Shown in pieces: positions 6,730-36,063 of a stretch of 39,368 nucleotides of DNA. The DNA is from Erythrobacteraceae bacterium (GTDB lineage: Bacteria; Pseudomonadota; Alphaproteobacteria; Sphingomonadales; Sphingomonadaceae). The notes beneath the pieces are model-generated. The model saw only the letters and a list, made by a program, of their open reading frames with translations. It had not been told where the DNA came from and made no database searches. Location: contig JAIYAL010000187.1 of the NCBI GenBank assembly GCA_027489095.1, positions 1 to 39,368 of the forward strand. Direction: 5' to 3'. Numbering within the stretch: the stretch's first letter is position 1; every line of letters begins with the position of its first letter. The translations under genes were made by a program, and so were the position numbers.

Positions 6730-6745
6730 TCAACACCTTCGTAGA
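6730..6745. promoter_or_regulatory. Degenerate copy of the TCAACA-N4-TGTTGA palindrome
   Basis: The left half-site TCAACA is intact and the right half reads CGTAGA (4 of 6 matches). It lies 64 nt upstream of the TonB receptor start and 18 nt from a better copy. It may be a secondary operator or chance. Confidence 0.3.
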
Positions 6746-6763
6746 TGAGATAGGTCACATTCG

Positions 6764-6779
6764 TCAACAGTGGTGTTAA
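6764..6779. promoter_or_regulatory. Probable operator upstream of the TonB receptor gene
   Basis: TCAACA-GTGG-TGTTAA, one mismatch from the perfect palindrome found at 6922, 17299 and 36048. It lies about 100 nt upstream of the receptor start. On the minus strand the half-site includes TTGACG, a possible -35 element, so a repressor bound here could block leftward transcription. Confidence 0.65.
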
Positions 6780-6921
6780 AATTTTGGCTGAAACAGCCAA
6801 GACCAGCGGCGGAAGTCCGATATTATCCCTGTTTTTCCAGCAAAAAATGTTGCAAACTCGGGACTTCGCCTTTGAAATGAGCCACCCGGACCAAGCGCTG
6901 TCAGCCCCAAGCAACGTCAAA

Positions 6922-6937
6922 TCAACATACCTGTTGA
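6922..6937. promoter_or_regulatory. Probable operator of the rightward BVMO operon
   Basis: TCAACA-TACC-TGTTGA is a perfect inverted repeat with a 4-nt spacer, identical in its half-sites to the copies at 17299 and 36048. It lies 69-86 nt upstream of the candidate BVMO starts. The right half-site overlaps a -35-like TTGACT. Confidence 0.78.
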
Positions 6938-7023
6938 CTTTTACCTCGCTATTGCGGACAGGGATGCCAACGCCGCTCCGCTGATGGCGCGTGCAGGGCA
7001 ATAACACGCAGTGGCAGGTAGCT

Positions 7024-8940
7024 GTGCAACACACCGAACATCCCGATTGGCTGACCGAGGCGCTGGAGGCTGCAAATGTGCCGACTCTTGCCTGCCTGCT
7101 GGTCCAGCTGACGGGCGAACGGAGCTGGATCGAAGGCAAGTTCATTCCCACCCGCACGCGCGGGATGGACGACAACGACAGCGGCGGTCTGCCCGATGAT
7201 GTGCAGCGCGAAATCCGCGATGCCGCCCACGCCGCGCTGACCCGGCATTTTGGCGGCGAGCCGGCTCGCCTGGTGAATCCGTCAGATGCGCTGCTTGTCG
7301 AGATGATGAGCGTCTCGCTCGGCGAAACTGTCCCCGCAACATACGCCCCGATGATTCGCGCGGATCTTGATCTGCCAGCGGCTGACGGCAGAGAGCCGGA
7401 ACATGCCCAGATTCCGGATGGTTTTCGCGCGCTGATCATTGGCGCAGGGATTTCGGGCCTGTGCGCTGCCATCCAGCTGGCGAAGGCGGGCATTCCGTAC
7501 ACGATCGTCGAGCGCCATGACCGCCCCGGCGGCGTCTGGCTCGAGAACCGCTATCCGGGCGCTGCCTGCGACGTGCCGAGCCACCTCTATTCGTTCTCGT
7601 TCGCGCCCTACGACTGGTCGCGCTTCTTTGCCGGCAGCCGGGAGATCCACGGCTATCTCGAGAAGGTCGCGGACGATCACGATATCAGGCGGCACATCCG
7701 CTTCGGCGTCGAGGTGACCGAAGCGCGGTTTGACGAGGCCGCAGGCGAATGGACCGCTCTCGTCACCAACGAGACAGGCAATGCCGAAACCTTGCGTGCG
7801 TCGATTCTGATCAGCGGCGTCGGCGCGTTCAACAAGCCGCGGCTGCCCGATATCCCGGGGCTCGCAACTTTCAACGGCCCCAGCTTCCACACCGCCACCT
7901 TTCCCGATGAGGGCGTGCCGCTCGAAGGGCGCAACGTGGTCCTGATTGGCAACGGGGCGAGCGCGATGCAGGTTGCGCCCGCGATCGTGGACACCGTTGC
8001 CTCGCTGACGATCGTGCAGCGCACCCCGCAATGGGCTGCGCCGTTCCCGAAATTCGGCCAGAGCATTCCTGCACCACTCCGCCAATTGCTTGATGCGGTT
8101 CCGCTATACCGCCGCTGGTACCGCATTCGGCTGAGCTGGGCGTTCAACGACAAGCTCTACGAGGCGCTGCAACAGGACCCGGCGTGGGACGGCCGAGGCC
8201 GTTCGATCAACCCGATCAATGAGGCGCACCGCAAGGGGCTTGAGGCGTATATCACCGCCGAACTCGGCGCCGCGAAGCATTTGCTGCCGCAGGTCATCCC
8301 GGACTACCCGCCCTTTGGCAAACGTATGTTGCTGGACAACGGCTGGTTCCGCACATTGGCGAGGGACAATGTCTCCCTCGTCACAGGCTCGGTGGTCGAG
8401 GCCCTGCCGGATGGGGTCCGCACGCATGATGGCGCGGTCCACAAGGCGGACGTGCTGATCTGGGCAACCGGCTTTGACGTAGTCAACCTCCTGGCGCCGA
8501 TGAAGGTCGTCGGGCTCGGCGGACGCGAACTGCACAAGGACTGGAAGGGCGACGATGCGCGCGCCTATCTCGGCACAGTCGTTCCCGGATACCCCAACTT
8601 CTTCTGCCTCTATGGGCCCAACACCCAGTTCGGGCACGGCGGCAGCCTGATCACCGTGCTCGAGCGGCAGATGCACTATGTGATGTCGCTCATTCAGCAG
8701 ACTCTGGCCGCGGGCGCCACGCAAGTGGAAGTACGCGAGGAGGTCCACGACGCCTACAACGTCAAGGTCGATCAGACCCACGCCGGCATGGTGTGGACCT
8801 ACCCCGGTGTCGAGACCTACTACAAGAATTCCAAGGGCCGGGTCGTCGTCAACAACCCGTTCCGGATCATCGACTTCTGGACCATGACCGAGACAGCGGA
8901 TCTCGGCGAATACATCCTTGGGAGGCCTTCCTATGGATAG
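7024..8940 (+). CDS. HAPMO-like Baeyer-Villiger monooxygenase (type I, FAD/NADPH)
   Basis: Inserts one oxygen atom from O2 next to a carbonyl to give an ester or lactone. About 638 residues, with a roughly 140-residue N-terminal helical extension before the first Rossmann motif (GAGISG). This matches the architecture and length of 4-hydroxyacetophenone monooxygenase (about 640 residues). The BVMO fingerprint reads FNGPSFHTATFP, with Phe in place of the usual Trp, followed by a second nucleotide motif GNGASA. The downstream ENRYPGAACDVPSHLYSFSF block is typical of the HAPMO branch. The GTG at 7024 is preferred because GGCAGG precedes it; an in-frame GTG at 6991 lacks a Shine-Dalgarno. It heads an eight-gene plus-strand operon, and its stop overlaps the next gene by 8 nt. 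Substrate unknown; an aryl or branched ketone is possible. Confidence 0.9.
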   Translation: MQHTEHPDWLTEALEAANVPTLACLLVQLTGERSWIEGKFIPTRTRGMDDNDSGGLPDDVQREIRDAAHAALTRHFGGEPARLVNPSDALLVEMMSVSLGETVPATYAPMIRADLDLPAADGREPEHAQIPDGFRALIIGAGISGLCAAIQLAKAGIPYTIVERHDRPGGVWLENRYPGAACDVPSHLYSFSFAPYDWSRFFAGSREIHGYLEKVADDHDIRRHIRFGVEVTEARFDEAAGEWTALVTNETGNAETLRASILISGVGAFNKPRLPDIPGLATFNGPSFHTATFPDEGVPLEGRNVVLIGNGASAMQVAPAIVDTVASLTIVQRTPQWAAPFPKFGQSIPAPLRQLLDAVPLYRRWYRIRLSWAFNDKLYEALQQDPAWDGRGRSINPINEAHRKGLEAYITAELGAAKHLLPQVIPDYPPFGKRMLLDNGWFRTLARDNVSLVTGSVVEALPDGVRTHDGAVHKADVLIWATGFDVVNLLAPMKVVGLGGRELHKDWKGDDARAYLGTVVPGYPNFFCLYGPNTQFGHGGSLITVLERQMHYVMSLIQQTLAAGATQVEVREEVHDAYNVKVDQTHAGMVWTYPGVETYYKNSKGRVVVNNPFRIIDFWTMTETADLGEYILGRPSYG

Positions 8941-9709
8941 CCCAATCTACGGCCCCGTCGAGATCGAACAGCACGGCGCGGTCCTCGTCATCGCGATCAA
9001 TCGCCCGCAGCAGCGTAACGCGGTGACGCATGCGGTCTCGCTGGCCATCGCAGGCGCGCTGGACCGGCTCGATGCCGATCCCCAATTGCGGGTGGGGATC
9101 ATCACCGGGCGTGGCAGCTCGTTTTGCGCGGGGATGGACCTCAAGGCCTTTGCCGAAGGCGAACGGCCCGAGCTGGAAGGCCGCGGCTTTGCCGGGATCA
9201 CCGAAGCTCCACCTGAAAAGCCGGTGATCGCAGCGGTCGAAGGCTTTGCATTGGCAGGTGGCTGCGAGCTGGCGCTGGCCTGCGACCTGATCGTGGCAGC
9301 CGAAACCGCCTGGTTCGGCCTCCCCGAAGTGGCGCGCGGCCTGGTCGCAGGCTCGGGCGGACTGGTGCGCCTGCCACGCCGCATTCCCGAGACGATTGCG
9401 CTGGAATATGCGCTGACCGGCGCACGCATGGACGCGGCGACAGCGCACCGCTGGGGCCTCGTCAACCGGATCACGCCCGAAGGCGGCGCGCTCGAAGGCG
9501 CTCTCGCGCTCGCGCAGGCCATCACCGCCAACGCGCCGCTGAGCACGGCGATGACCAAGCGCATCATCCGCGAATCGCGCGAATGGCTTGAGGCCGAGAT
9601 CTGGGACCGCCAGCGCCCGCTCGTCGACAGCGTGCTCGCCTCTGAAGATGCAACCGAAGGCGCGCGGGCCTTTGCCGAGAAACGCCCTGCACAATGGACC
9701 GGACGATGA
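8933..9709 (+). CDS. Enoyl-CoA hydratase/isomerase (crotonase family)
   Basis: A 258-residue cytoplasmic crotonase expected to hydrate a 2-enoyl-CoA. The oxyanion-hole segment SSFCAGMDL (about 62-70) and both catalytic glutamates are present: Glu112 in LAGGCEL and Glu132 in FGLPEV. The start at 8933 follows a GGAGG Shine-Dalgarno at 8921-8925 with a 7-nt gap; an upstream in-frame TTG at 8918 is not needed. The gene overlaps the BVMO end and the following dehydrogenase start, so the three are tightly coupled. It should form a beta-oxidation segment with the next two genes. Confidence 0.93.
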   Translation: MDSPIYGPVEIEQHGAVLVIAINRPQQRNAVTHAVSLAIAGALDRLDADPQLRVGIITGRGSSFCAGMDLKAFAEGERPELEGRGFAGITEAPPEKPVIAAVEGFALAGGCELALACDLIVAAETAWFGLPEVARGLVAGSGGLVRLPRRIPETIALEYALTGARMDAATAHRWGLVNRITPEGGALEGALALAQAITANAPLSTAMTKRIIRESREWLEAEIWDRQRPLVDSVLASEDATEGARAFAEKRPAQWTGR

Positions 9710-10566
9710 ACGAAGCTTTGGCAAACCAGCAGATCGCAGTTGTCGGCGGCGGCACGATGGGCGTCGGCATCGTCTATGTCAGCGCCATGGCGGGTGCGCA
9801 TGTCACTGTCGTCGAGCCGAATGATGCGCGCGCGCTCGGCCTGCGCGACACGATCAGCAAAACGGCCGCCTCCGCGATCTCGCGCGGCAAGCTTGATGCA
9901 GCAGGTGCAGCAGCACTTGAAAACCGGATTACGCGGATTGCCGCTGTGGACCTGTTGCAGGAGGGTCTCGATCTGGTGATCGAAACCGTGCCCGAGCGGC
10001 TGGAGCTCAAGCTCGACATTCTTGCGCGGATTGCGCGCCGGACGCCAAAGCTGATCGGCAGCAATACCAGCGCGATGTCGATCGACCGGCTGGCGCAGGC
10101 CTTGCCCGATCCGGGGATCTTTCTCGGCATGCACTTCTTCAATCCGGTTTGGTCGATCCATCTGGTCGAACTGGTTGAAGGCGCGAAAACCCTGCCGGAA
10201 ACGCTGGAGGCCGCTCGCGCCTATGTGACAGCAATCGGCAAGCAGTCGCTTACAGTGCGCGATGTGCCCGGTTTTGCCACCAGCCGGCTCGATCTGATCG
10301 CCAGTCTCGAGGCGATGCGCATGCTCGAATCGGGCGTTGCTTCGGCTGAGGATATCGACCGGGCCGCGGTTGTTGCCTATCGCCATCCGGTCGGGCCGCT
10401 GCGCCTCAGTGACATTGTCGGCATCGACGTCCGGCTCGATATCGCGCGCACGCTGGAGGCCGCCCACGGCCACCGTTTCGCCCCGCCGCAAATACTCATC
10501 GACATGGTCGCCGCAGGCAAACTCGGCGCCAAATCGGGGCAGGGCTTTTTCACCTGGCCGCAGTGA
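9706..10566 (+). CDS. 3-hydroxyacyl-CoA dehydrogenase
   Basis: NAD-dependent oxidation of an L-3-hydroxyacyl-CoA to the 3-oxoacyl-CoA, with about 286 residues as in single-domain bacterial enzymes. The dinucleotide motif GGGTMGVG is at 14-21, and the active-site Ser119/Asn120 region (GSNTS), His143 in GMHFFNP and Glu155 in LVELVEG are all present. The ATG at 9706 overlaps the hydratase stop (ATGA); an ATG at 9694 would add four residues. Because a BKACE gene lies downstream, a carnitine-dehydrogenase-like role on a free hydroxy acid is an alternative, since those enzymes belong to the same family and neighbour BKACE genes elsewhere. Confidence 0.92.
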   Translation: MNEALANQQIAVVGGGTMGVGIVYVSAMAGAHVTVVEPNDARALGLRDTISKTAASAISRGKLDAAGAAALENRITRIAAVDLLQEGLDLVIETVPERLELKLDILARIARRTPKLIGSNTSAMSIDRLAQALPDPGIFLGMHFFNPVWSIHLVELVEGAKTLPETLEAARAYVTAIGKQSLTVRDVPGFATSRLDLIASLEAMRMLESGVASAEDIDRAAVVAYRHPVGPLRLSDIVGIDVRLDIARTLEAAHGHRFAPPQILIDMVAAGKLGAKSGQGFFTWPQ

Positions 10567-10593
10567 GCATATTTCAAGTCTGGAGCATTTCGA

Positions 10594-11772
10594 ATGTTGT
10601 CTGATCTTTTCCAAACAACCCTGTGCGACACCGCCGACCACCACCGCGATCTGCGTGACAGCGTCAGCAAACTCGTCGGGAAGTTTGGCCGGAAGTACTT
10701 TCAGGACGTCGTCAACAAGGGCGAGCAGCCGACCGCCCTGTGGTCCGCGCTGGGCGAGGCCGGGTTCCTGGGTGTGCACGTGCCCGAGGCCTACGGCGGC
10801 GGCGGTGGCGGCCTTTCGGAACTCAATATCTGCATCGAGGAAACCGCAGCGCATGGCTGCCCGATCCTCTCGATGGTCATCTCATCGATCACTGCGCCGA
10901 TCATTGCGGCTTGCGGCAGCGAGGCGATGAAGCAGGAGTGGCTGCCCGGCATCGCCAGCGGCAAACGCAAGATGTGCTTCGGCATCACCGAGCCGAACGC
11001 CGGGTCGAACACCCACAAGGTCACCACCCATGCAGTGCGCAAGGGTAATGGCTGGGTTATCAACGGCGCAAAGTACTGGACGTCTGACATCGATCAGTCG
11101 GACGCAGTCATGGTCGTGGCGCGTGATGGCGTACCGGTGAACGACGGCTCGCGGCAAGGTCTGTCGCTGTTCGTTGTGCCCACCAGCACACCGGGCATTT
11201 CGATGACTCAGATCGATTCCGCCCTGCGTACCTCCGAAAAGCAGTTTTCCGTGTTCTACGACAATGTAGAAGTGCCCGACGAGGCGCTGATCGGAGAACC
11301 CGGCGCGGGCCTGAAGCAGGTATTCTCGGGCCTCAATCCGGAACGCATCGCAGCCGCCGCAATCAACAACGGCATTTCACGCTTTGCCATCTCGCAGGCG
11401 GCGCAATATGCCAAGGACCGCTCGGTGTGGAACACGCCGATCGGTGCGCATCAGGGCGTCGCCCACCCGCTGGCCGAAGCCTATATCAACGTGCAGGCGG
11501 CACGCCTGCTCAATGCCCGTGCCGCGCAGCTTTGCGATAGCGGGGAAGACGCCGCCGAAACCGCCAACATGGCCAAGTTCGCGGCCGCCGAATCCTCTCT
11601 GAAGGCGCTCGATCAGGCGATCCAGGTCCACGGTGGCAACGGGCTGTCGAATGAGTACGGTCTGTCCGATCTGTGGTTCATCGCGCGCCTGCACCGCACC
11701 GCGCCGGTGAGCCGCGAGATGATCCTGAATTACGTCTCGACCCATAGCCTGGGCCTTCCGAAGAGCTACTGA
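10594..11772 (+). CDS. Acyl-CoA dehydrogenase family protein
   Basis: A 392-residue FAD-dependent dehydrogenase that should introduce an alpha,beta double bond into an acyl-CoA. The FAD/substrate motif CFGITEPNAGSNT (128-140) and the late QVHGGNG motif are clear. The usual catalytic Glu near the C-terminus (YEGT in medium-chain enzymes) appears to align with Pro371 in HRTAPVSRE. Glu250 in GLNPERI sits where isovaleryl-CoA and long-chain enzymes carry their base, so the protein is probably active on branched or unusual substrates. A GGAG Shine-Dalgarno lies about 8 nt before the ATG. An LvaC/ACAD11-like role, acting with the kinase encoded at 21504, is a further possibility. Confidence 0.9.
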   Translation: MLSDLFQTTLCDTADHHRDLRDSVSKLVGKFGRKYFQDVVNKGEQPTALWSALGEAGFLGVHVPEAYGGGGGGLSELNICIEETAAHGCPILSMVISSITAPIIAACGSEAMKQEWLPGIASGKRKMCFGITEPNAGSNTHKVTTHAVRKGNGWVINGAKYWTSDIDQSDAVMVVARDGVPVNDGSRQGLSLFVVPTSTPGISMTQIDSALRTSEKQFSVFYDNVEVPDEALIGEPGAGLKQVFSGLNPERIAAAAINNGISRFAISQAAQYAKDRSVWNTPIGAHQGVAHPLAEAYINVQAARLLNARAAQLCDSGEDAAETANMAKFAAAESSLKALDQAIQVHGGNGLSNEYGLSDLWFIARLHRTAPVSREMILNYVSTHSLGLPKSY

Positions 11773-11777
11773 TCCCC

Positions 11778-13298
11778 GTGGAAACCAACCTGCTGACTTT
11801 GCTACGCCGGAATGCGACGCTGACCCCGGATGCTCCCTGCCTGACTTTCGGCGACGAGACGCTAAGCTTTGGGGCATTCGACAAGCGGGCCAGCCGTGTG
11901 GCGCACGCGCTCGCTGCGCAGGGCGTGCAGGTTGGAGACCGGGTCGCGATCCTTGCGCGCAATGGGCCGGCGCAGTTCGAGCTGTTCTTCGGCTGCGCCA
12001 AGGCGGGTGCGATCTGCCTGCCGATCAACTGGCGGCTGGCCCCGCGCGAGATTGCCGGTATTCTTGGCGACAGCGCGCCAGCGCTGTTGATCCTGGAAGA
12101 AGCCCTGAAAGGGCTGCTGGCCGAAACACTGACACCGCCAGCCACGATCCTGCTCGCGGATTATCCCGCTTGGCGCGATGCTGAAAGTCCGGACGATCCG
12201 GGCGCCCTGCCCGCCCCGGACAGCCCGCTCCTGATCCTTTATACTTCCGGCACGACCGGCCTGCCCAAAGGCGTGGTGATGAGCCACCGCAACCTCTCGT
12301 TTTTGGCGCGGATGGCACATGAGCTGTGGGACATGTCTGCAAGCAGCGTCAATCTGGTGTCCAGCCCGCTCTTCCATATCGGCGGGATCGGCTATGCCAT
12401 GACTGCGATGAGCCAAGGTGGCCACACCGTGCTGCTGCAGCAGGTCGTGCCGGCCGAGATCGTTGCCGCGATCCAGACCTACCGCGTCACTCACGGTTTC
12501 TTCGTGCCGACCGTGATCCAGATGCTGCTCGAAGTGCCGGGCGTGGCCGAAATGGACATGTCGAGCATCAACCGCATCGTCTATGGCGGCGCGCCGATTG
12601 GCGAGGCAGTGCTCAAGCGGGCGATCACCATGCTAGGCTGTGGCTTCATGAACACTTATGGCATGACCGAGACCGCCGGGACGGTGATCATGATGGCGCC
12701 TGAGGACCACGATCCTGGCGGCCCGCGCGCGCATCGACTGCGTGCTTGCGGGAGACCCATGCCATGGAACGAGTTTGCACTGGTCAATCCGGCAACGGGT
12801 CAGCCGGTTGCTGTGGGCGAAGTTGGCGAAATCCGCATCCGGTCCGAGGCCATCATGCTCGGCTACTGGAACAAGCCCGCAGAAACCGCGAAAACGATCA
12901 CCCCCGATGGCTGGATGTGCACCGGCGATGCCGCCTATCAGGACGCCGACGGCTTCGTGTACATTCATGACCGCTTCAAGGACATGATCGTCTCCGGCGG
13001 GGAGAACATCTACCCTACCGAGATAGAGAACGTGCTCTACGATCACCCGGCAGTCGCCGCCGTCGCCGTGATCGGCGTGCCGCATGAACGCTGGGGCGAA
13101 ACCCCCAAGGCTTTCGTTGTCGCGCGGGCGGGTACCATGCCCACCGAGGCTGAGCTGATCGCGTTCACCCGCGCGCAGCTGGCGCACTACAAGTGTCCGA
13201 CCTCCGTCGCCTTCGTGGCGGCGCTGCCCCAGAACGCCTCGGGCAAGATCCTCAAAAAAGAAATGCGCGATCCGCGCTGGCTGGAAGAACAAGCATGA
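11778..13298 (+). CDS. AMP-dependent acyl-CoA ligase (ANL superfamily)
   Basis: Activates a carboxylic acid to its CoA ester through an acyl-AMP intermediate. The 506-residue protein has the P-loop YTSGTTGLPKG (155-165), the NTYGMTE motif, the GWMCTGD hinge region, GGENIYPTEIE and the A10 lysine (NASGK, Lys490). It starts with GTG 5 nt after the acyl-CoA dehydrogenase stop; the Shine-Dalgarno is weak, so translation may be coupled. It is the first of three ligases in the island. The substrate cannot be read from the sequence. Confidence 0.92.
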   Translation: METNLLTLLRRNATLTPDAPCLTFGDETLSFGAFDKRASRVAHALAAQGVQVGDRVAILARNGPAQFELFFGCAKAGAICLPINWRLAPREIAGILGDSAPALLILEEALKGLLAETLTPPATILLADYPAWRDAESPDDPGALPAPDSPLLILYTSGTTGLPKGVVMSHRNLSFLARMAHELWDMSASSVNLVSSPLFHIGGIGYAMTAMSQGGHTVLLQQVVPAEIVAAIQTYRVTHGFFVPTVIQMLLEVPGVAEMDMSSINRIVYGGAPIGEAVLKRAITMLGCGFMNTYGMTETAGTVIMMAPEDHDPGGPRAHRLRACGRPMPWNEFALVNPATGQPVAVGEVGEIRIRSEAIMLGYWNKPAETAKTITPDGWMCTGDAAYQDADGFVYIHDRFKDMIVSGGENIYPTEIENVLYDHPAVAAVAVIGVPHERWGETPKAFVVARAGTMPTEAELIAFTRAQLAHYKCPTSVAFVAALPQNASGKILKKEMRDPRWLEEQA

Positions 13299-14095
13299 CC
13301 CTCAGTCCCTCAGCGCGCCTGCTGCGCGGCTTTGCCGTCGATTTTCTTACCTGCCACAACGTGGCGGCGGTCGAGACGATCATGGAGCCCGACTATGCGC
13401 TCAGCATCGGCGGATTCGTGCTTGCTGGCCGCGACGACACCTATCTCCCCGCAACCGCCGCGCAGCTCGATCAGTTTCCCGGCCTCTGCGTGACGGTGCA
13501 CGATACGGTGATCGGTCCCGACGCCATTGCGATGCGCTTTACCGAACACGGCGCGTCTAGCCGTCACGCCGGGCGGCTTTCCACCTGGGGCGGCATCACG
13601 CTGTTCCGGATCCGGAACGGGCGACTGCATCGCGGCTGGGCCGAGGAGGACTACTACGCACGCAAGCGCCAGCTCGCCGAAAGCACCTGCGACAGGATCC
13701 GCGCCCCGCATCCCGCCCCGTGGGACGCGCCTTGCGAAGCACCGGACCAAGCGGTGGAGGCGTTGGCACAGGCTTGGCTGACGACCCCCGCAAATTGGAC
13801 CGAGAGGACAATGATCGACGAGATCAGCGCCGAAGGACCGCGCTTTGCCGATCTGGTGGCCATCGAAAACATCACAATCGACCAGCTGTTTTCTGCCGGG
13901 CAGCGCGGGGCGTTCCACCTCACTTGCACCGGCACCTATCGCGGCGGGTTTGACGATATCGATCCGGCGCAAATCGGCCAGCCGGTCACGCTGGCGCTGG
14001 CTGGCATCTTCGACTCCGAGGGAGACCAGATTGTGCATGTGCAAGTTACTGCGGACCGCCTCGGCCTCAACCGCGCGCTGATGCCGCCGCGATGA
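13295..14095 (+). CDS. Tandem NTF2-like/SnoaL-like protein
   Basis: A 266-residue cytoplasmic protein that appears to hold two NTF2-like cone folds: one at about 1-130 (start LLRGFAVDFLTCHN, then a W..GI..FRI.NG strand pair) and one at about 155-266. Single-domain members of this superfamily are isomerases, dehydratases, cyclases or hydrolases on cyclic ketones and lactones, which would suit a BVMO operon. No catalytic dyad can be assigned with confidence. The start is the ATG overlapping the ligase stop (ATGA), and the stop overlaps the next gene in the same way. Function unknown. Confidence 0.75.
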   Translation: MTLSPSARLLRGFAVDFLTCHNVAAVETIMEPDYALSIGGFVLAGRDDTYLPATAAQLDQFPGLCVTVHDTVIGPDAIAMRFTEHGASSRHAGRLSTWGGITLFRIRNGRLHRGWAEEDYYARKRQLAESTCDRIRAPHPAPWDAPCEAPDQAVEALAQAWLTTPANWTERTMIDEISAEGPRFADLVAIENITIDQLFSAGQRGAFHLTCTGTYRGGFDDIDPAQIGQPVTLALAGIFDSEGDQIVHVQVTADRLGLNRALMPPR

Positions 14096-15018: not shown

Positions 15019-15021
15019 AGC

Positions 15022-16465: not shown

Positions 16466-16475
16466 CTTGGGCTCC

Positions 16476-19012: not shown

Positions 19013-19013
19013 C

Positions 19014-22981: not shown

Positions 22982-22985
22982 CCCC

Positions 22986-24215: not shown

Positions 24216-24232
24216 GAACGCAGGAGACCCGA

Positions 24233-26061: not shown

Positions 26062-26062
26062 G

Positions 26063-28278: not shown

Positions 28279-28279
28279 G

Positions 28280-29875
28280 TCAGTTTCCATTCGCTATCTG
28301 AAAGCCGGCGTATCCGCTGGCCGCGACCGCGTCGCAAATCTCCCGGTAGCGGCCTATGCCGCCAACAAAGGGCATGAAAACACGTGGTTTTCCCGGAATA
28401 TTGGCTCCAAGATACCAGGAGTTCGCCTGCACGAAGAGCGTCGCTTCCGCCGCATTGTTGACCTGCTGGACCCAGGCGTCTTCCGCTTCGGGTTCAGGCT
28501 CGATCCGCGTGGCACCGCACTGCGCCAAATGATGGATGCACCCCGCGATCCAGTCGATGTGCTGCTCGATACCCACCACCATGTTGACCAGCACCGAAGG
28601 GCTTCCCGGACCTGTCACGATGAACATGTTGGGAAAGTCCGCTGTCATCAGCCCGAGGTAGTTGCGCGGCCCATCAGCCCATTTGGCGCTCAGCGCCGCA
28701 CCACTACGCCCGCGGATATCGATCTGTGCCAGCGCCCCGGTCAGCGCGTCGTAGCCTGTCGCGCAGACGATCACGTCGACCGGCAAAACGGCTTCACGGG
28801 TGTGGATCGAATGCGCGTCGATCATCGTGACCGGGTCGACCTGCAGATCAACGAGCGACACGTTCGGGCGGTTGTAGGTCTCGTAGTAGTCAGAGCCGAC
28901 GCAGATGCGCTTTGCTCCCAGCGGATAGCCGCATGGGCAGAGCTTTTCTGCTGTCTGAGGATCATCGACCAGTTCGCGAATAAGGGCACGGACGAAATCG
29001 GCCGCCGTCTGGTTGGCTGCCAGATCGGTCATGATATCGCTGAACGCGTGGACGAAGTTGACCCCGCCCAGTTCCCACCGGCGGCGATACTCCGCCTCGC
29101 GCGCCTCGGCGCTGACCGAAAGCGCAGGGGTCTGGCTGAAATCGTAAAGGGTGCCAACTTGCCGCGCCTGCGCGCGGTAATCAGCATAAGCCACCTTCCA
29201 GGCCGTCTGCTTCTCATCACTCAGCGGCTGGTTGCGCGCGGGCACCACGAAATTGGGCGTGCGCTGCAGGACCACCAGCCGCTCGGCCGAACGGGCGATT
29301 TGTGGAATGGCCTGCACGCCCGACGAGCCCGTGCCGATGACTGCAACAGACTTGCCCGCAAAGTCCACGCCGTCATGCGGCCAGGCTCCAGTGTGGAGGA
29401 TCTGCCCCGCGAACGTTTCGATCCCGGGGATATCGGGCAAGCGCGAGGCCGACAGCGATCCGCTCGCCATAATGCAGAAGCGCGCAGTGACCGCGTCGCC
29501 GCGATCGGTTGTCACATGCCAGCGGTCCAGCGTCGCATCGAAATGCGCAGAGGTGACCCTTGTGCCAAAGGAAATCAGCGGCCGCAGTTCGAACCGGTCA
29601 GCCACATGATGGAGGTAGGCCAGAATCTCGCCCTGCTGTGCATAGCGCTCGGACCAGACCCATTCCTGCTGCAGCGGATCATCGAACGAATAGCTGTACT
29701 GCAGGCTTTCCACATCGCAGCGGGCGCCGGGATACCGGTTCCAGTGCCATACCCCGCCAACATCGTCCGCGGCCTCGAACGCGTGGATGGCAAGGCCTTG
29801 AGCCCGCAGCTTGTGCAGCGCGTAGAGGCCGGCAAACCCCGCGCCGACGACAACAACGTCCATTTCGCGCGTCAT
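28280..29875 (-). CDS. Baeyer-Villiger monooxygenase (cyclohexanone monooxygenase-like)
   Basis: A 531-residue type I BVMO with GAGFAG (11-16), fingerprint FAGQILHTGAWP (155-166) and GTGSSG. It is closely similar to the enzymes encoded at 17387 and 36096. The NRYPGARCDVESLQYSYSFD block follows the first Rossmann fold. The ATG overlaps the CoA-transferase stop (ATGA). The esterase gene follows directly, giving a ketone-to-ester-to-acid-plus-alcohol module. Substrate unknown. Confidence 0.94.
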   Translation of the reverse strand: MTREMDVVVVGAGFAGLYALHKLRAQGLAIHAFEAADDVGGVWHWNRYPGARCDVESLQYSYSFDDPLQQEWVWSERYAQQGEILAYLHHVADRFELRPLISFGTRVTSAHFDATLDRWHVTTDRGDAVTARFCIMASGSLSASRLPDIPGIETFAGQILHTGAWPHDGVDFAGKSVAVIGTGSSGVQAIPQIARSAERLVVLQRTPNFVVPARNQPLSDEKQTAWKVAYADYRAQARQVGTLYDFSQTPALSVSAEAREAEYRRRWELGGVNFVHAFSDIMTDLAANQTAADFVRALIRELVDDPQTAEKLCPCGYPLGAKRICVGSDYYETYNRPNVSLVDLQVDPVTMIDAHSIHTREAVLPVDVIVCATGYDALTGALAQIDIRGRSGAALSAKWADGPRNYLGLMTADFPNMFIVTGPGSPSVLVNMVVGIEQHIDWIAGCIHHLAQCGATRIEPEPEAEDAWVQQVNNAAEATLFVQANSWYLGANIPGKPRVFMPFVGGIGRYREICDAVAASGYAGFQIANGN

Positions 29876-30996
29876 GCGTTGGGCTCCCGGCGCAGCGGTG
29901 TGCGTACAGTTGTGCGCTTACCGTTGAACGTGGCGGGAAACAGGGTCTGCAAGCGACCATCGGCGCGTTGGACAAAGCCGCTTGCGCGCACCTGCTCCGA
30001 GGAGAGCGCTTCGCCCAGATCCAGTACGGGTGACAGGCAGCAATCCGCATTGGCGAACTGCGCCTCAATCTTGGCGAGGCTTCGCCTGGCAAAGAAGGCA
30101 GTGAGCTCTGCGATCAGACTTGTCTGGGGCAGCGGATCGCCCTGCCGCAAACACCAGTCGGGCCGCCCCGCCGCCGTGCAGAAATTTTGCCAGAACCGGG
30201 GCTCGACCGGCCCCAGCATGACATACCGTCCGTCGGCAGTCCGGTAGATGTTATAGTAAGCCGCAGCCCCGTTGAGATACGTCGAGCCACGTTTCGGCAC
30301 GGTGCCGTTCGCGCCCCATTCGGCTACCTGCATCGATTGCAGCGGCATCAGGGTATCGGCAAGGCCAAGCTCGATATGCACCCCCTCGCCCGTTCGCTGC
30401 CGGGCATTGAGCGCGCCGAGAATGGCAATCGCTGCATAAAGCGCGCCCGCCATGTCCGCGATCGGCGGATCGAAGAACACCGGAGCATCGTGGCCGTTGC
30501 GGTCCAGAATGCCGCTTTCCGCCAGATAATTGCCATCATGGCCCGCCGCGTTGGCCAGCGGTCCGCTCGTTCCGTAGCCGCTGATTGAGCAGTAGATGAG
30601 TGCCGGATTGTGCAAAGCCAGCGCCGCGTAATCAAACCCGAGCCGCGCCATAACGCCGGGCCGGAAGCCTTCGATCAGCACATCGGCATCGGCCAGCAGG
30701 CCTGCCATCGCATTGCGCCCGTCGGCGGACTTGAGATCGAGCCGTCGCAGCGATTTACCTGCATTCAGGCTGGCATAGAACACCGGCTCGCCACCGGCAT
30801 CGCGCGGCCCCAGATTGCGCATGCCGTCCCCAACTGGTGGCTCGATCTTCAGCACCTCTGCGCCCATGTCAGCAAGAATCTGGCTCGCGACCGGCCCCGA
30901 AATGTACTGCGAGAGATCGAGGACTTTCACGCCCGACAGGAAAGAACCGACATAGCCCAAAAGCGCCCACCCCAGCGGGATAAGTCCCGCTTCCAT
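29872..30996 (-). CDS. Family III CoA-transferase (CaiB/BaiF type)
   Basis: Up to 374 residues, with the SGVKVLDLSQYISGP start block, GADVLKIEPP-like segment and catalytic Asp154 in GHDGNYLAESG. The protein moves CoA between carboxylates, or could racemise an alpha-methylacyl-CoA, since AMACR belongs to the same family. The extra 20 residues before the conserved start have no Shine-Dalgarno, so the true start may be downstream at a GTG or similar codon near 30930. It is the second CoA-transferase in the island, from a family unrelated to the one encoded at 24233. Confidence 0.88.
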   Translation of the reverse strand: MEAGLIPLGWALLGYVGSFLSGVKVLDLSQYISGPVASQILADMGAEVLKIEPPVGDGMRNLGPRDAGGEPVFYASLNAGKSLRRLDLKSADGRNAMAGLLADADVLIEGFRPGVMARLGFDYAALALHNPALIYCSISGYGTSGPLANAAGHDGNYLAESGILDRNGHDAPVFFDPPIADMAGALYAAIAILGALNARQRTGEGVHIELGLADTLMPLQSMQVAEWGANGTVPKRGSTYLNGAAAYYNIYRTADGRYVMLGPVEPRFWQNFCTAAGRPDWCLRQGDPLPQTSLIAELTAFFARRSLAKIEAQFANADCCLSPVLDLGEALSSEQVRASGFVQRADGRLQTLFPATFNGKRTTVRTPLRREPNA

Positions 30997-31055
30997 TCGA
31001 ACATTCTCACTGGATAGAAACCATACCGATGAGTATTATGCAAGCATGATTGCCA

Positions 31056-31802
31056 TCAATTCGACCATCCGCCGTCAATTATGTGGCACTGGCCGGTGGT
31101 GAAACGGGCCGCGTCGCTGGCCAGATAGAGCGCGAGACTGGCAATCTCGTCTACCTGCCCGAACCGCCCAAGCGGTTGCCGCGCGACAAAGGCCGCCCGG
31201 GTTTGAGCGTAATCGCCGCTTGCCCGTATCCGCGCCTCCAGTGCAGGCGTTTCAATCGTACCCGGGCAGATCGCATTGGCGCGAATGCCCTGCGCCGCGT
31301 GGTCTGCTGCCAGCGCCTTGGTCATGCCGATGATCGCTGCCTTGGTTGCAGCATACGCAAACCGGTCGGGCACGCCGCGAACCGAACTGGCAACCGACGA
31401 CATGGTGATGATCGACCCGGCCCCTTGCGCGATCATCCCTGGCAGCAAAGCGCGAATCATCCGGAACATGGCCGTGACATTGAGAGCAAACGCCCCGTCC
31501 CAGTCCGCATCACTGCAATCAAGCACCGTGCCGTAGGGCACCGTGCCTGCGCATAAGAACGCAACGTCCACCGCCCCCGCCGTCCGTGCAAACGCTTCGA
31601 CCCCGGCGGCATCAGTGAGATCGAGGGCGAAAGGCTCGCATCCGCAGGCACTCTCAAGGGAGGCCAACCCATCCGCGTTGATATCCACCGCCAGCACGCG
31701 CGCACCTTCGCGCGCAAAGCGTTCGGCACTGGCCCTGCCGATCCCCTGACCGGCGCCGGTGATGACCGCCGTCATGCCGTGCAGGGCGCCAGGAACGGTC
31801 AA
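31056..31802 (-). CDS. Short-chain dehydrogenase/reductase, DHRS6/BDH2-like
   Basis: A 248-residue SDR with TGAGQGIG (15-22), LCAG in place of NNAG (83-86), Ser136 and Tyr150/Lys154. The segment SSVASSVRGVPDRFAYAATK resembles the 3-hydroxybutyrate dehydrogenase type 2 group. The TTG start at 31802 overlaps the TetR stop (TTGA) and restores the normal N-terminus (GALHGMTAVITGAG); an ATG at 31775 would cut it short. It probably oxidises a hydroxy acid or alcohol intermediate. Confidence 0.9.
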   Translation of the reverse strand: MTVPGALHGMTAVITGAGQGIGRASAERFAREGARVLAVDINADGLASLESACGCEPFALDLTDAAGVEAFARTAGAVDVAFLCAGTVPYGTVLDCSDADWDGAFALNVTAMFRMIRALLPGMIAQGAGSIITMSSVASSVRGVPDRFAYAATKAAIIGMTKALAADHAAQGIRANAICPGTIETPALEARIRASGDYAQTRAAFVARQPLGRFGQVDEIASLALYLASDAARFTTGQCHIIDGGWSN

Positions 31803-32479
31803 TAGGGCGATTCCAGCCCGGCCAGCACCATCTCGGCGTAGATCTTGCCGATTTCCTCCGCGCTGACGTCGCTTTCCGCCGGCCTGAACCAGCGGTGCGT
31901 CCAGCCGACAATGCCGAGCACGCCATAGGCCACGACCTTGGATGAACCAACGTTGCGGAAGGACTTGTCGGCATAGCCCTGCTCGATGATCGCGATCACC
32001 GCATCGGACATCTGCCTGTTGAGATCGCGCATGTAGCGCGACCACTCTGAGCGCTTGTCGCTGACATTGCTGAGGTTTTCGCGAATGTAGATATACATCA
32101 GCGGGTAGTGTTCGCCGTAGGACGACATCAGCGCGATGATCAGGTCGCTGAGCTTGCGCCGAGGTCGCATGTCGCTGGCCTGAATCTTCTGCGCCAGTGC
32201 CACGTTGCGCTCCACCACGGTGCGCACGATCTCGTCGAAGAGCTCCTCCTTCGACGAGATGTAGTAGTAGAGTGAGGCCCGATCGATATTCAATTCGGCA
32301 GCGACAGCAGTCATGCTCGCCCGCTGGAATCCCATCCGGTTGAACACCCGGATCGCCGCTTCGCCGATTTCCTTGCGGCGTTGCTGGTGCGAAACGCTGG
32401 AATCCTCGCGCGCCGCAGTGCGCCGTTTGCCGATACCGCTTTCGGAGGGTGCCATCATTGGCTTGCCGTGTTTCATCAT
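31799..32479 (-). CDS. TetR-family transcriptional regulator
   Basis: Up to 226 residues with a helix-turn-helix at roughly 54-77 (MTAVAAELNIDRASLYYYI) after a basic, probably disordered N-terminus. The C-terminal domain (YIYIRENLSN, GWTHRWFRP) is the type often found beside acyl-CoA catabolic genes in actinobacteria and sphingomonads, so its ligand may be an acyl-CoA. The gene is embedded between two SDR genes and overlaps one. The exact start is unsure, with several ATGs in the first ten codons. It is a strong candidate for the regulator of the shared palindrome. Confidence 0.91.
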   Translation of the reverse strand: MMKHGKPMMAPSESGIGKRRTAAREDSSVSHQQRRKEIGEAAIRVFNRMGFQRASMTAVAAELNIDRASLYYYISSKEELFDEIVRTVVERNVALAQKIQASDMRPRRKLSDLIIALMSSYGEHYPLMYIYIRENLSNVSDKRSEWSRYMRDLNRQMSDAVIAIIEQGYADKSFRNVGSSKVVAYGVLGIVGWTHRWFRPAESDVSAEEIGKIYAEMVLAGLESPY

Positions 32480-32525
32480 GCGCCGCCAATTACGCGATCA
32501 TGCGCGCCATTTCCAGTTGCAGGGC

Positions 32526-33296
32526 TCATCCGCGTGGCCCTCCGGCAACATAGAGCACTTGCCCGGTTACATAGCCTGACCGTTCATCGACGAAGAATGA
32601 AACCGCATGGGCAATATCCTCGGGCTGGCCGACCCTGCCAACCACGGTTCCGGCAATCGCCTGTTGCTTCATGTCCTCGAACGTCATGCCGACTCGCGCG
32701 GCCACTTCCGCCGTCATGGCGGTCTCGACAAAGCCCGGAGCAACCGCGTTTGCCGTGATCCCATAGCGACCAAGTTCGATGGCCAAGGTCTTGGTCAGTC
32801 CCTGCACACCGGCCTTGGCTGCGGCATAGTTGGCCTCGCCGAGATTCCCAAGCGCGGCCGTGCTGGAAAGGTTGACGATCCGGCCCCAGCCTGCAGCGCG
32901 CATGTGCGCTTGCACCGCGCGGCTCATCAGGAAGGCGCCGCGCAAGTTGACGTTGATCACGAGGTCCCAATCCGCCAGCGACATCTTGCCGATCGTGCGG
33001 TCACGCAGAATGCCTGCGTTGTTGACCAGAATCGTGGGCGGCCCGAGCGCAGCGGTCACATCAGCCACTGCCTGCTCAACAGCGGTTTCGTCGGCGACGT
33101 CCGCGCCGACCGCAAGGGCCCGTCGCCCGAGTGCCTCGATCCCGCGCACGGTCTCGCTGCAGGCCAACGCATCGAGATCGATCACGGCAATGTCATGGCC
33201 ATCTGCGGCAAGGCGGAGCGCAATGCTCGCGCCAATGCCGCGCGCGGCTCCGGTGACAATTGCGACCCGCGTTGTGCTAGCGCCTGCCTCGCTCAT
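32526..33296 (-). CDS. Short-chain dehydrogenase/reductase, FabG-like
   Basis: A 256-residue SDR with TGAARGIG (15-22), NNAG (92-95), Ser144 and Tyr157/Lys161. The GYVTGQVLYVAGG C-terminus is typical of 3-oxoacyl reductases. In a degradative operon it may work as a 3-hydroxyacyl-CoA dehydrogenase or alcohol dehydrogenase. The ATG overlaps the upstream ligase stop (ATGA). It is followed after 46 nt by the TetR gene. Confidence 0.92.
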   Translation of the reverse strand: MSEAGASTTRVAIVTGAARGIGASIALRLAADGHDIAVIDLDALACSETVRGIEALGRRALAVGADVADETAVEQAVADVTAALGPPTILVNNAGILRDRTIGKMSLADWDLVINVNLRGAFLMSRAVQAHMRAAGWGRIVNLSSTAALGNLGEANYAAAKAGVQGLTKTLAIELGRYGITANAVAPGFVETAMTAEVAARVGMTFEDMKQQAIAGTVVGRVGQPEDIAHAVSFFVDERSGYVTGQVLYVAGGPRG

Positions 33297-35011
33297 GCCG
33301 CCTCCACCATGCGAGCGACGGCTTCCGCCAACATGAACTTGCGGGCGCGGCCCGATGCGGTTGTGGGAATGTCCGTTGCCTTCACAAAAAACAGGTGACG
33401 CGGTACCTTGAAGCGCGCGAGGCGTTCTTGAACGAGAGCCAGCAGCGCCTCACTCGTAATCTCTGCACCATCACATGGCACAACCAGCGCCACGCCAACT
33501 TCACCCATGCGTTCATCGGCCAAGGGCACGACATGCGCCTGCATCACATCGGGATGCGAAGTCAGTACGTCCTCCACTTCACTAGGCAGCACCTGCTCCC
33601 CGCCGCAGCGGTAGGATTCTTTGAGTCGCCCGGCTAGCGTGAGATAGCCCTCGCTGTCGATCCGCCCCAGATCGCCGGTGCGAAACCAGCCCTCGGCATC
33701 GAACGCCGCCGCCGTCTCAGCCGGCTTGTTATAATACCCGCGCGTCACGCCAGGCCCCTTCGCGCGCAACTCACCTACCGCGCCGGCAGGCAGGACCGCC
33801 TCGCTGTCCGGATCGACCACCCTGTACGCAACCAGTTGTCCGCCAAGCGCCGGATCACCAGCCACGCCCGCATCGCGCAGCCGGCCGTTGGTCTCGAGCA
33901 GCCGCTCGAACGGGTCATCGGGGCGGGTGACGGTGGAGGATGCGGTGACCTCGGTCATGCCGTAGCCGGTCGTGATCTCGGCCACGCCCAACACGCTGCC
34001 GATCTCACGCCAAATGCGCTCAGGAGCACGGGTGCCGGAGGAAAGGACTGAGGTTAGCGCGGAGAGATCCCAAGCAGCATCTCGCGCCGCCTCGATCACG
34101 GCCAGAGTCATGGTCGGCACCAGCAAGGCATCGGTGACGCGGTGCAGCGCGATGGCCTGAAGCAGATCCGCGGCCTCGAACCGCAACCGCGGAACGATTG
34201 CACCGCCGACGAACAGCACCGGCAGCATGCCCTCACCGTAGCCATAGACGTGGTACATCGGCAGCGCGAACACGATGCGCCGTGCGTCTTCGAATGCTCG
34301 CGACAAGGCACTGGCGAAGGCAGTGCGCAAGACCTGATCGTGGCTCAGCATCACGCCCTTGGGCGCCCCGGTGGTGCCAGAGGTATAGATGATATCCGCA
34401 ACCGCATCCGGGGACGAGGAAGGGAAGGCCAGCCCCTCGGGCGCGCGATGCTCCAGCGCGGCGAAGGGTGTGGCCTGGGCCCGGGCTGGCTCCGAACCCG
34501 TGGGGAACACGACGACCGTCCGCAACTTCGGAAAGGCCTGCCCGCCACCGTGCTGCTCCCAGCCAGGCATGAGCTGATCGAGCATTGCCAAGGTATCGAG
34601 GCCCCGAAAGCAGTCCATGGTCACGAGCATGACCGCATCGGATTGGGCCAGAACATAGCCCAACTCCGCCTGCCGGTTCAGGATATTGAGGGGCACGGCC
34701 ACTGCCCCGACCCGCGAAATGGCGTACTTGAGCGCAACGAACTCAGGGTAGTTGGCCATGAGCAGCGCCACATGGTCACCTGGCCGTACCCCCGCCGAAA
34801 TCAGACCGGTAGCCAGCCGCAGTGACCAGTCCGCCAGTTCACGATAGCTCCAGGACCGTTCGTCCGTGATGACATACGGCCGGTCAGGAAACTCCCCTGC
34901 TGCCGAATCCAGCATGCCGTCCAGCGAGCGCGCAATCCATTTCGGAAAGCGCGTCGCCAGCGCGCCTTGTCGGTCCAAAGCGGACGACCGCAGGGCAGCC
35001 TCTTCCGTCAC
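33293..35011 (-). CDS. AMP-dependent acyl-CoA ligase-like protein with altered A10 lysine
   Basis: A 572-residue ANL protein with the P-loop YTSGTTGAPKG, TGYGMTE, GWFRTGD and GGEQVLPSEVE motifs. The C-terminal A10 motif, normally containing the catalytic Lys of the adenylation step (TGK), reads TASGRARKF with Arg555 instead. The enzyme may be slower in adenylation or use another residue; the nearby Lys557 is out of register. It starts with GTG overlapping the crotonase stop (GTGA). It is the third ligase in the island. Confidence 0.9.
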   Translation of the reverse strand: MTEEAALRSSALDRQGALATRFPKWIARSLDGMLDSAAGEFPDRPYVITDERSWSYRELADWSLRLATGLISAGVRPGDHVALLMANYPEFVALKYAISRVGAVAVPLNILNRQAELGYVLAQSDAVMLVTMDCFRGLDTLAMLDQLMPGWEQHGGGQAFPKLRTVVVFPTGSEPARAQATPFAALEHRAPEGLAFPSSSPDAVADIIYTSGTTGAPKGVMLSHDQVLRTAFASALSRAFEDARRIVFALPMYHVYGYGEGMLPVLFVGGAIVPRLRFEAADLLQAIALHRVTDALLVPTMTLAVIEAARDAAWDLSALTSVLSSGTRAPERIWREIGSVLGVAEITTGYGMTEVTASSTVTRPDDPFERLLETNGRLRDAGVAGDPALGGQLVAYRVVDPDSEAVLPAGAVGELRAKGPGVTRGYYNKPAETAAAFDAEGWFRTGDLGRIDSEGYLTLAGRLKESYRCGGEQVLPSEVEDVLTSHPDVMQAHVVPLADERMGEVGVALVVPCDGAEITSEALLALVQERLARFKVPRHLFFVKATDIPTTASGRARKFMLAEAVARMVEAA

Positions 35012-35913
35012 GCGTCCGCAGGGCCGCGATCTCGTTCGGCCTCATAGGCCTCAAGGTACGTTCGATAGGGCGCGAAAGGCGCGTCGCGCATACGCACGGC
35101 CGGGCGGACCCCACCCTCGCGCCACACCTTGGTAAACTCTTCCATCCCCGGCCCGGCAATGCCGAGCGCATCGAGATCGTTGGCCGCAGCCATGCCGGCC
35201 TGCATGCCGGCCGCCTCGAACCAGCGGTTGGTCACTTCCTTGTGGCTGTAGATCGCATCGAGCGGCACATTGGATACGCGCTTGGCATAGGCCATCGCCA
35301 CGGCTTCCAGTTCCTCGCGCGGCACCGCCCGGTTCACGAGGCCCATTTCAGCGGCTTCCACGCCGGTCATGTTATCACCGGTGAACAGCCACTCCTTGGT
35401 CTTGCGCATGCCGAGATGGATCGGCCACATTGCGAAGACATGAAGCTCACCCATGGCGCGTGCCTCGGGCTGGCCGAGCAGGGCATCTTCGGCGGCAAAG
35501 GCAATGTCGCACACGCCGATCAGATCGAGCGATCCGGCAACGCAGTGTCCGTGGACCACCGCGATCGTGCACTGGCGCAGGCGGAACAGGCGCATCCAAC
35601 GCTCGCGCGAGAGGTGGAACTCGCGCCGCGACCAGACCGGATTGCGGCGATGCGGGCGGCGCTGCACTTCGTTGATCGCGCTGTCGGCGTCCCAGAGGTA
35701 GGAGAACTCCTTGAGATCGTACCCCGTGCCGAAATGGGCGCCGTTGGCCTTGATCACGAGCACACGCGTCTCGTCGTCATGATCAAGATCGTCCATCACC
35801 CGGTCAAGCTCATCGCGCAGCTGCACCGAAATCGCGTTGCCGGTGTGCGGCCGGTTGAGGGTGACTGTCGCAATGCGGTCAGCCTTTTCGTAAATCAGGG
35901 TCTCAAACTGCAT
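35008..35913 (-). CDS. Enoyl-CoA hydratase/isomerase family protein (crotonase)
   Basis: A 301-residue crotonase, longer than the typical 260, with an Arg-rich insertion at about 85-110 after the oxyanion region (HFGTGYDLKEF). In the catalytic loop the first glutamate is replaced by Asp130 (AGSLDL), while Glu150 (LGQPEA) is kept. It may be a hydratase, isomerase or hydrolase of an unusual acyl-CoA. The ATG at 35913 has AAGGA at an 8-nt distance; upstream ATGs at 35922 and 35937 are less well placed. It opens the long leftward gene series, divergent from the last BVMO. Confidence 0.89.
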   Translation of the reverse strand: MQFETLIYEKADRIATVTLNRPHTGNAISVQLRDELDRVMDDLDHDDETRVLVIKANGAHFGTGYDLKEFSYLWDADSAINEVQRRPHRRNPVWSRREFHLSRERWMRLFRLRQCTIAVVHGHCVAGSLDLIGVCDIAFAAEDALLGQPEARAMGELHVFAMWPIHLGMRKTKEWLFTGDNMTGVEAAEMGLVNRAVPREELEAVAMAYAKRVSNVPLDAIYSHKEVTNRWFEAAGMQAGMAAANDLDALGIAGPGMEEFTKVWREGGVRPAVRMRDAPFAPYRTYLEAYEAERDRGPADA

Positions 35914-35975
35914 TGCCAGCATCCTTGGTTGTCGCATTCTCTGGTCATGGTGGCTATCGCCAAGGAACGCCCTAG

Positions 35976-35991
35976 TCAACAGATACGTTGA
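35976..35991. promoter_or_regulatory. Probable operator upstream of the crotonase-led leftward operon
   Basis: TCAACA-GATA-CGTTGA differs by one base from the perfect palindrome. It lies 63 nt upstream of the crotonase start. On the minus strand the intact half-site contains TTGACT, a possible -35 box. Confidence 0.65.
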
Positions 35992-36047
35992 TTTTATCCG
36001 TGCGAGCCCAGAAACCGGGGGTCTTGAATGCACCGGAAGCAGCTTAA

Positions 36048-36063
36048 TCAACATAAGTGTTGA
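36048..36063. promoter_or_regulatory. Probable operator upstream of the rightward BVMO gene
   Basis: TCAACA-TAAG-TGTTGA is a perfect palindrome, 33 nt before the BVMO start at 36096 and so likely near or over the transcription start. Its half-sites equal those at 6922 and 17299, and it is 57 nt from the copy at 35976. Confidence 0.8.

Follow-up and report, generated by a model that had tools for sequence, protein, structure and literature searches.

The window analysed here is a 39,368-nucleotide stretch of an Erythrobacteraceae bacterium (positions 1 to 39,368 of contig JAIYAL010000187.1, assembly GCA_027489095.1), which carries a catabolic gene island with three divergent promoter regions. 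All three share a palindrome, TCAACA-N4-TGTTGA, which we propose to be the operator of TetR2, a TetR-type protein encoded in the island. A rescan of the window returned the five copies listed in the initial annotation, three exact and two with one mismatch, at the same positions. The gaps, the copies within them and the island's two TetR proteins are as follows (BVMO, Baeyer-Villiger-type monooxygenase).

Gap I, 6667-6990: transcript 1 runs to the left, transcript 2 to the right.
Operator copy I-a, 6764..6779, no strand: one mismatch, TCAACAGTGGTGTTAA; 97 bases to the TonB receptor start.
Operator copy I-b, 6922..6937, no strand: exact; between the TonB receptor and BVMO1, 53 bases to the BVMO1 GTG start.
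Gap II, 17247-17386: transcript 3 runs to the left, transcript 4 to the right.
Operator copy II, 17299..17314, no strand: exact; in the 140-bp SDR1/BVMO2 divergent region, 52 bases to SDR1 and 72 to BVMO2.
Gap III, 35914-36095: transcript 5 runs to the left, transcript 6 to the right.
Operator copy III-a, 35976..35991, no strand: one mismatch, with the core TCAAC-N6-GTTGA intact; 62 bases to ECH2.
Operator copy III-b, 36048..36063, no strand: exact; 32 bases to BVMO4.
TetR2 (P0002), 31799..32479, minus strand: proposed cognate repressor, with a PF00440 helix-turn-helix, a PF17932 C-terminal domain and a KstR2/PfmR-like fold.
TetR1, 25450..26145, minus strand: second TetR protein, last gene of transcript 5; of the PF17932 class and not linked to the motif.

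Based on Pfam scans and gap lengths, six transcripts comprising ~31 genes between 514 and 37751 likely start from these three gaps.

Transcript 1, 514..6666, minus strand: TonB receptor, pyrroloquinoline quinone (PQQ)/cytochrome-c alcohol dehydrogenase, aldehyde dehydrogenase.
Transcript 2, 6991..15798, plus strand: BVMO1 (N-terminally extended), enoyl-CoA hydratase, 3-hydroxyacyl-CoA dehydrogenase, acyl-CoA dehydrogenase, AMP ligase, SnoaL-like protein, BKACE, cyclase-family hydrolase.
Transcript 3, 15800..17246, minus strand: SDR1, glutathione-transferase-like protein.
Transcript 4, 17387..25441, plus strand: BVMO2, AMP ligase, cyclase-family protein, phosphotransferase-like protein (APH), a small open reading frame (ORF), ORF 22986-24113, acetyl-CoA hydrolase/transferase-like protein.
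Transcript 5, 25450..35913, minus strand: ECH2, AMP ligase, SDR3, TetR2, SDR2, CoA transferase III, BVMO3, alpha/beta hydrolase, FMO, TetR1; largest gap 59 bp.
Transcript 6, 36096..37751, plus strand: BVMO4.

The gaps between the genes of transcript 2 are short or negative, and the 119-bp gap before the last gene of transcript 4 could contain another promoter. Gene starts were judged by eye, and the mechanical starts at 17308, 36054 and 36057 were rejected because they lie within sites; those chosen are 6666 (minus) for the TonB receptor, a GTG at 6991 (plus) for BVMO1, 17246 (minus) for SDR1, 17387 (plus) for BVMO2, 35913 (minus) for ECH2 and 36096 (plus) for BVMO4. The ORF at 31056-32489 was resolved into two genes, TetR2 (31799-32479) and SDR2 (~31056-31772). 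What counts as intergenic depends on these calls, since long antisense or out-of-frame ORFs of the mechanical list, themselves unsupported, also span the three gaps, for example 6531-7502 (minus), 17234-17911 (minus) and 35242-35991 (plus).

The palindrome is enriched in the window far beyond chance. Up to two mismatches, it has 10 matches there against 0.68 expected (100 shuffles, largest count 3), and the core TCAAC-N6-GTTGA has four exact matches against 0.02 expected. These matches include a one-mismatch copy at 17718, inside the BVMO2 gene, and two-mismatch copies at 6730, 36112, 641 and 26811, all absent from the initial annotation. When all 4096 hexamers h were counted in the window as h-N(k)-rc(h), with k from 0 to 8, TCAACA at N4 was the sole case with three exact copies; at spacers 0-3 and 5-8 every hexamer had at most two, and the 119 other hexamers of the same composition (on either strand) had none at k = 4. 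Across the whole assembly (G000; 3,317,900 bases, 223 contigs), exactly three exact copies occur, all in the window's three divergent promoter regions and within 30 kb of one another rather than scattered, and a reversed-letter control motif has no match even with one mismatch allowed. Allowing one mismatch raises the number of matching places to nine, six of them in the window and three on other contigs. By our gene calls the five that are intergenic all fall in the three divergent promoter regions, and the remaining four are intragenic; the three on other contigs sit within long, purely mechanical ORFs, and one of these places (C57:1304) retains the core. A scan of the full genome, proposed at that time as a test of equal frequency at random positions, finds that the motif is not equally frequent elsewhere.

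A refined motif was built from 41 sites in 14 sources, leaving out the in-gene copy at 17718. This set and the count of 17 exact copies given below exclude the near duplicates L096, L098 and L101 (of which L098 did enter the upstream scan), as well as L091 and L095, which have no site, and L094, whose one exact site is unlinked; the 17-copy count also omits G297 and the outer pieces L084, L088 and L090, which have no site. The half-site TCAAC is near-invariant at 1.74 to 2.0 bits, values that are inflated because sites were preselected at one mismatch or fewer, with intergenic position checked for part of the 41. The sixth base is A in 66 of 82 half-sites and G in 13, and the base just outside the half-site is G or A in 65 of 82. 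The four spacer bases are free (~0.1 bit). Fixed half-sites around a free spacer, which the initial annotation had read from the window's few copies as the pattern of a dimer site, are seen across 41 sites. Flanks differ between copies, with at most weak conservation beyond the site. The spacing is exactly four: cluster DNA from 13 sources (347,167 bp, the window among them) holds 17 exact copies at spacer 4, 14 of them outside the window, but no exact copy at the remaining spacers between 0 and 10, and no copy of any of the 59 alternative orders of TCAACA's six letters. As background, 67 distant loci, apparently from Bacillota (L108-L174), dropped from the site counts, hold no exact and three one-mismatch sites in 1,274,859 bp, a comparison in which base composition may differ. 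The one-mismatch sequence of copy I-a recurs in G397 at C331:10624. Just to the right of I-a lies a separate perfect inverted repeat, TGGCTG-AAA-CAGCCA (6785-6799), whose core is not common to 14 other stretches compared.

The palindrome accompanies TetR2 in other genomes. A search of 296 genomes of the order with both TetR proteins found TetR2 in five: G000, G290, G215, G198 and G297. Eight of the 20 sites with at most one mismatch in G290, including all four exact copies, are on contig C18, which bears both TetR genes (reversed-letter control, 3). In G215 eight of nine such sites, and three of three exact copies, are on the TetR2-bearing contig C2 (control, 1). This contig is plasmid pSFD01 (NZ_AP017899.1, 242612) of Sphingopyxis sp. 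FD7, which is reported to come from industrial cooling water (PMC7273453). By annotation six of the eight plasmid sites are intergenic; the other two, 57838 and 57992, fall on the 5' end of a TonB receptor gene as annotated, perhaps because its start was placed too far upstream. The plasmid carries at ~30000-85500 (L086/L087) a duplicated version of the island interrupted by insertion sequences (IS). There the similarity to BVMO2 breaks off at 50069, directly ahead of IS genes, the annotation splits the first BVMO1 copy into two ORFs, and positions 40730-41191 hold a truncated copy of TetR2.

A scan of genome contigs with TetR2 gave 79 loci, 12 of them (L096-L107) at 67% identity or above. The site lies directly upstream of tetR2 in L098, L099, L102, L103, L104, L105, L106, L107 and G290, with one-mismatch sites only in L099, L102 and L104; since L098 and L107 are near-identical, these nine are not all independent. 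In loci where other genes precede tetR2, the site heads its likely operon: this is the arrangement in the window, in L096, L097, L100 and L101, and at 79125 and 192154 on pSFD01. De novo comparison of the 300 bp upstream of TetR2 homologues identified TCAAC-N6-GTTGA as the most recurrent 5-mer inverted repeat, present in 9 of 11 stretches and missing from G198 and one pSFD01 copy; leaving aside the shifted form of the same repeat, every other 5-mer repeat occurred in at most two stretches, and those two are near-identical loci. The placement of the window's copies also recurs. The counterparts of gap I in G290 and pSFD01 carry sites with at most one mismatch; for gap II, pSFD01 has the identical 16-mer at the matching place (49639) and G290 an exact site in the matching gap; and L096 and L097 have, at the places matching III-a and III-b, a one-mismatch and an exact copy, respectively. 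A conserved palindrome, the predicted operator, lies in the own or a neighbouring promoter of TetR2. A Novosphingobium metagenome-assembled genome (MAG), C1_MAG_00068 (L096, L107), has two TetR2 copies, 100% and 94% identical to the window's, on different contigs and each with its own sites.

The TetR2 protein itself has the features of the TetR family, and TetR-family regulators are its top fold matches in the PDB. It combines an N-terminal TetR_N helix-turn-helix (PF00440, 46.4 bits, cut-off 24) with a C-terminal TetR_C_24 domain (PF17932, 55.9 bits, cut-off 26.4), and its AlphaFold2 model is all-helical, with ten helices and a mean pLDDT of 80.8. Foldseek places KstR2 (4w97, ~26% identity) at the top among PDB structures, the other nearest folds being a Thermobifida TetR protein and PfmR, and phmmer against the PDB ranks PfmR (3vpr) first and KstR2 third and fourth. 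The region R-A-S-x-Y-Y-Y-x-S-S-K-E-x-L-F, which, as in the TetR family generally, would be the region of the DNA-reading helix, is nearly invariant, with few substitutions among 18 aligned homologues.

We propose, with a probability of roughly 0.86, that the palindrome is the operator of TetR2 and that TetR2 is an autoregulated, KstR2-like repressor of the six transcripts, released by a pathway intermediate. A TetR2 dimer would bind TCAAC(A/g)-N4-(T/c)GTTGA in each divergent gap and block both flanking promoters. Because tetR2 lies in transcript 5, behind site III, the protein would also limit its own synthesis. As substrate enters the cell and is converted, an intermediate of the pathway would free TetR2 from the DNA; by analogy with its near structural relative KstR2, which is so released, this intermediate is probably a CoA thioester (acyl-CoA). 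Uptake, alcohol oxidation, Baeyer-Villiger steps, CoA ligation and beta-oxidation would then be switched on together. The sites, their positions and enrichment, their co-occurrence with TetR2 in other genera, and the TetR domains and predicted fold are observed; we infer repression rather than activation, as well as DNA binding by TetR2, its ligand, the pathway substrate and the blocking of RNA polymerase on both sides. The half-sites contain TTGA and can therefore overlie -35 elements: a sigma-70 scan of gap II places a minus-strand TTGAAA-18-TTTAAT (10/12) at 17302 and a TTGATT at 17311 over the site, and a minus-strand TTGACG at 6767 overlaps a site in gap I. Control of six divergent transcripts through a dimer-type operator, as first suggested from the window alone, is supported by the fixed half-sites, the free N4 spacer and the reappearance of the site, in other genera, between the same divergently transcribed genes.

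Several observations weigh against this proposal. The sigma-70 matches are weak, none in gap III overlaps a site, and a stricter tool finds a single match in gap I, another in gap II and none in gap III, so that blocking of -35 elements is a suggestion only. In G290, contigs other than C18 carry 12 of the 20 places with at most one mismatch (control, 3). The TetR2 homologue of G198 (61% identity; L091 12120-12785) lies outside any BVMO cluster, beside ApbE-like and weakly asparagine-synthase-like ORFs; the 20 kb fetched around it hold no copy with two mismatches or fewer, none of the six sites in that genome with at most one mismatch (control, 0) is beside its TetR2, and its one exact copy is inside an outer-membrane-barrel ORF near a gyrB-like ORF. 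The pSFD01 TetR2 copy at 73603 has only two-mismatch sites upstream. Exact copies also occur outside G000, in 61 of 197 relatives not all of which were searched for TetR2; with G000 counted, 62 of 198 genomes carry one or more exact copies, none has more than three, and the reversed-letter control is matched in 11 of 198, so the motif is commoner in the order than its control. Finally, the related loci were chosen through TetR2 and cannot show that the motif never occurs without it. The Rhodococcus ruber plasmid homologue (38%) has an unlike gene neighbourhood, and in G297 (55%) five sites have at most one mismatch (control, 2), the nearest ~16 kb from its TetR2, and no such copy lies in the gap between the BVMO4-like and ligase genes. 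That same gap holds a symmetric variant, TCAACG-N4-CGTTGA, at L092 17572 (1745001-1765000 stretch), which is consistent with a slow co-evolution of site and protein.

Among the alternatives, the best survivor, itself improbable, is that the two TetR proteins share the sites and that each responds to an intermediate of its own, giving a two-input control. Both are PF17932-type TetR proteins that are co-transcribed in the island, and 15 intergenic stretches of TetR1-bearing clusters yielded no second, unrelated shared palindrome that could be a separate site for TetR1. Against shared binding, TetR1 matches TetR2 homologues at only 24-29% identity, and TetR1 is missing beside clusters elsewhere. 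The TetR1 search reached 17 of the 296 genomes at E ≤1e-25, but only the window's genome and G290 have matches of at least 70% identity, the others being at 41% or less; a TetR1 search of 11 genomes gave one match above 42%, at 63% in G394, the genome of L100. G215, G388-G393 and G395 have the site at TetR2 without a TetR1 match above 42% identity, although in G395 the L096 contig ends before the expected place of tetR1.

It is less probable still that TetR1 (25450-26145) alone binds the palindrome and TetR2 has another role. TetR1 does belong to tetR2's operon and PF17932 class, and it is kept beside the cluster in G290, L097 and L100. Yet the seven genomes G215 and G388-G393 pair the site with TetR2 without such a TetR1 match, the motif stands directly upstream of tetR2 in nine loci, and among the 17 TetR1-homologue loci (~3.6 kb each, the window and G290 included) none has a site (at most one mismatch) or core within ~1.5 kb; nor does a second palindrome recur in the 15 stretches. 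TetR1 was rejected as the reader of the site on these grounds. The site follows TetR2 and not TetR1; on which of the two acts, left open in the initial annotation, sequence comparison singles out TetR2, with nothing for TetR1.

We hold in equally low regard the idea that a regulator encoded elsewhere binds the palindrome, which would accompany TetR2 only because the cluster is inherited as a unit. Such an idea would draw on the choice of loci by way of TetR2 and on the copies in many other genomes of the order; against it, the site accompanies TetR2 across several genera and onto a plasmid, amid gene neighbourhoods that differ, and conservation is weak at most outside the site itself. A chance origin, or a structural or repeat element without regulatory role, is negligible and chance was rejected: the motif is short, palindromes are common and with one mismatch allowed at N4 one other hexamer, the GC-rich GCGCCG, is more frequent in the window (eight places, none exact, vs six for TCAACA, three exact), but the window, assembly, hexamer, cluster-DNA and core counts, the fixed spacer, the placement conserved in the same gene gaps of other genomes and the differing flanks all speak otherwise.

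The proposed TetR2 regulon resembles known systems in layout and differs from each in its operator or scale. The KstR2 regulon of mycobacteria and rhodococci has three palindromes close to the regulator gene, each of them between divergent genes, and KstR2 controls one catabolic cluster of 15 genes and itself, the motif having been found from promoters of regulator orthologues (PMC3068626); its ligand is given as HIP-CoA (PMC8700777). TetR2 shares with it the layout of three divergent-gap palindromes near the regulator; KstR2 is also the top fold match in the PDB and, behind PfmR, among the best sequence matches. The KstR2 operator AnCAAGnnCTTGnT, however, has a single one-mismatch match in the window against 0.57 expected, which is chance level, so membership of that operator class was rejected; identity is ~26%, and the window's Pfam content suggests, at Pfam level only, another pathway. 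TetR2 works like KstR2 in our model but is not classed as KstR2, and its layout is ordinary for regulons of the KstR2 type. EdcR of Caenibius tardaugens is likewise a sphingomonad TetR-type repressor, estrogen-dependent, with divergent catabolic operons, a shared palindrome and proposed autoregulation (PMC8700777), but its proposed operator TnnCnnTACnAnTnGTAnnGnnA has no window match with at most one mismatch, and this operator class was also rejected. Mycobacterial BkaR is an autoregulated TetR dimer with a 16-bp core palindrome, an N4 spacer and local acyl-CoA-type metabolism genes (PMC3920632), features found here too; it differs in its half-sites, GTTA(N)T...A(N)TAAC, and in being actinobacterial. 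The pdc cluster of C. tardaugens also sets a sphingomonad BVMO gene beside a TetR gene, but comprises four genes in 4.6 kb (BVMO, LLM monooxygenase, TetR and LuxR regulators), as against ~31 genes in the window's island, and the word 'operator' is absent from that paper's main text (PMC12239570). No LuxR-type domain was found in the window ORFs scanned with Pfam. Literature searches for the cluster, regulator or substrate, the latter including steroid or progesterone, geosmin or other terpenoids, and abscisic acid, returned none with the TetR2/TCAACA-N4-TGTTGA pair, subscription papers being mostly outside their coverage.

The predicted regulon likely combines TonB uptake, four Baeyer-Villiger-type monooxygenases and CoA-ligase and beta-oxidation enzymes. 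The best matches of BVMO2 and BVMO3 among solved structures are steroid and phenylacetone monooxygenases, which does not identify the pathway substrate. ORF 22986-24113 (plus, 375 aa) has no Pfam domain above cut-off and is conserved at 75-97% identity in the G290, L097 and L100 clusters. At the island's right edge, ORF 37970-39304 (minus, 444 aa) is convergent with BVMO4, lies outside the site-bearing transcripts and appears by eye to be of a surface or secretion type.

It is also possible, at somewhat less than even odds, that TetR2 represents a regulator family, so far undescribed, that sphingomonads and at least one Steroidobacteraceae MAG share by horizontal transfer and in which one operator code, TCAAC(A/g)-N4-(T/c)GTTGA, would couple TonB uptake to a multi-monooxygenase pathway for an alicyclic or polycyclic ketone. 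If so, the TetR2 operator could retrieve every gene of that pathway from a genome.

Taken by itself, the regulon is likely real, conserved and locally confined, with a named likely regulator; it is ordinary in kind and useful in detail. Few regulators of such pathways have been described in this group, according to the literature searched, and here comparison alone ties an uncharacterised TetR protein to a likely DNA site and a whole catabolic regulon. The TetR2 site could serve in a reporter for finding the inducer, or as part of a small-molecule sensor. It can also help to find missing pathway genes elsewhere, such as those with the extra TetR2 copies and clusters on pSFD01.

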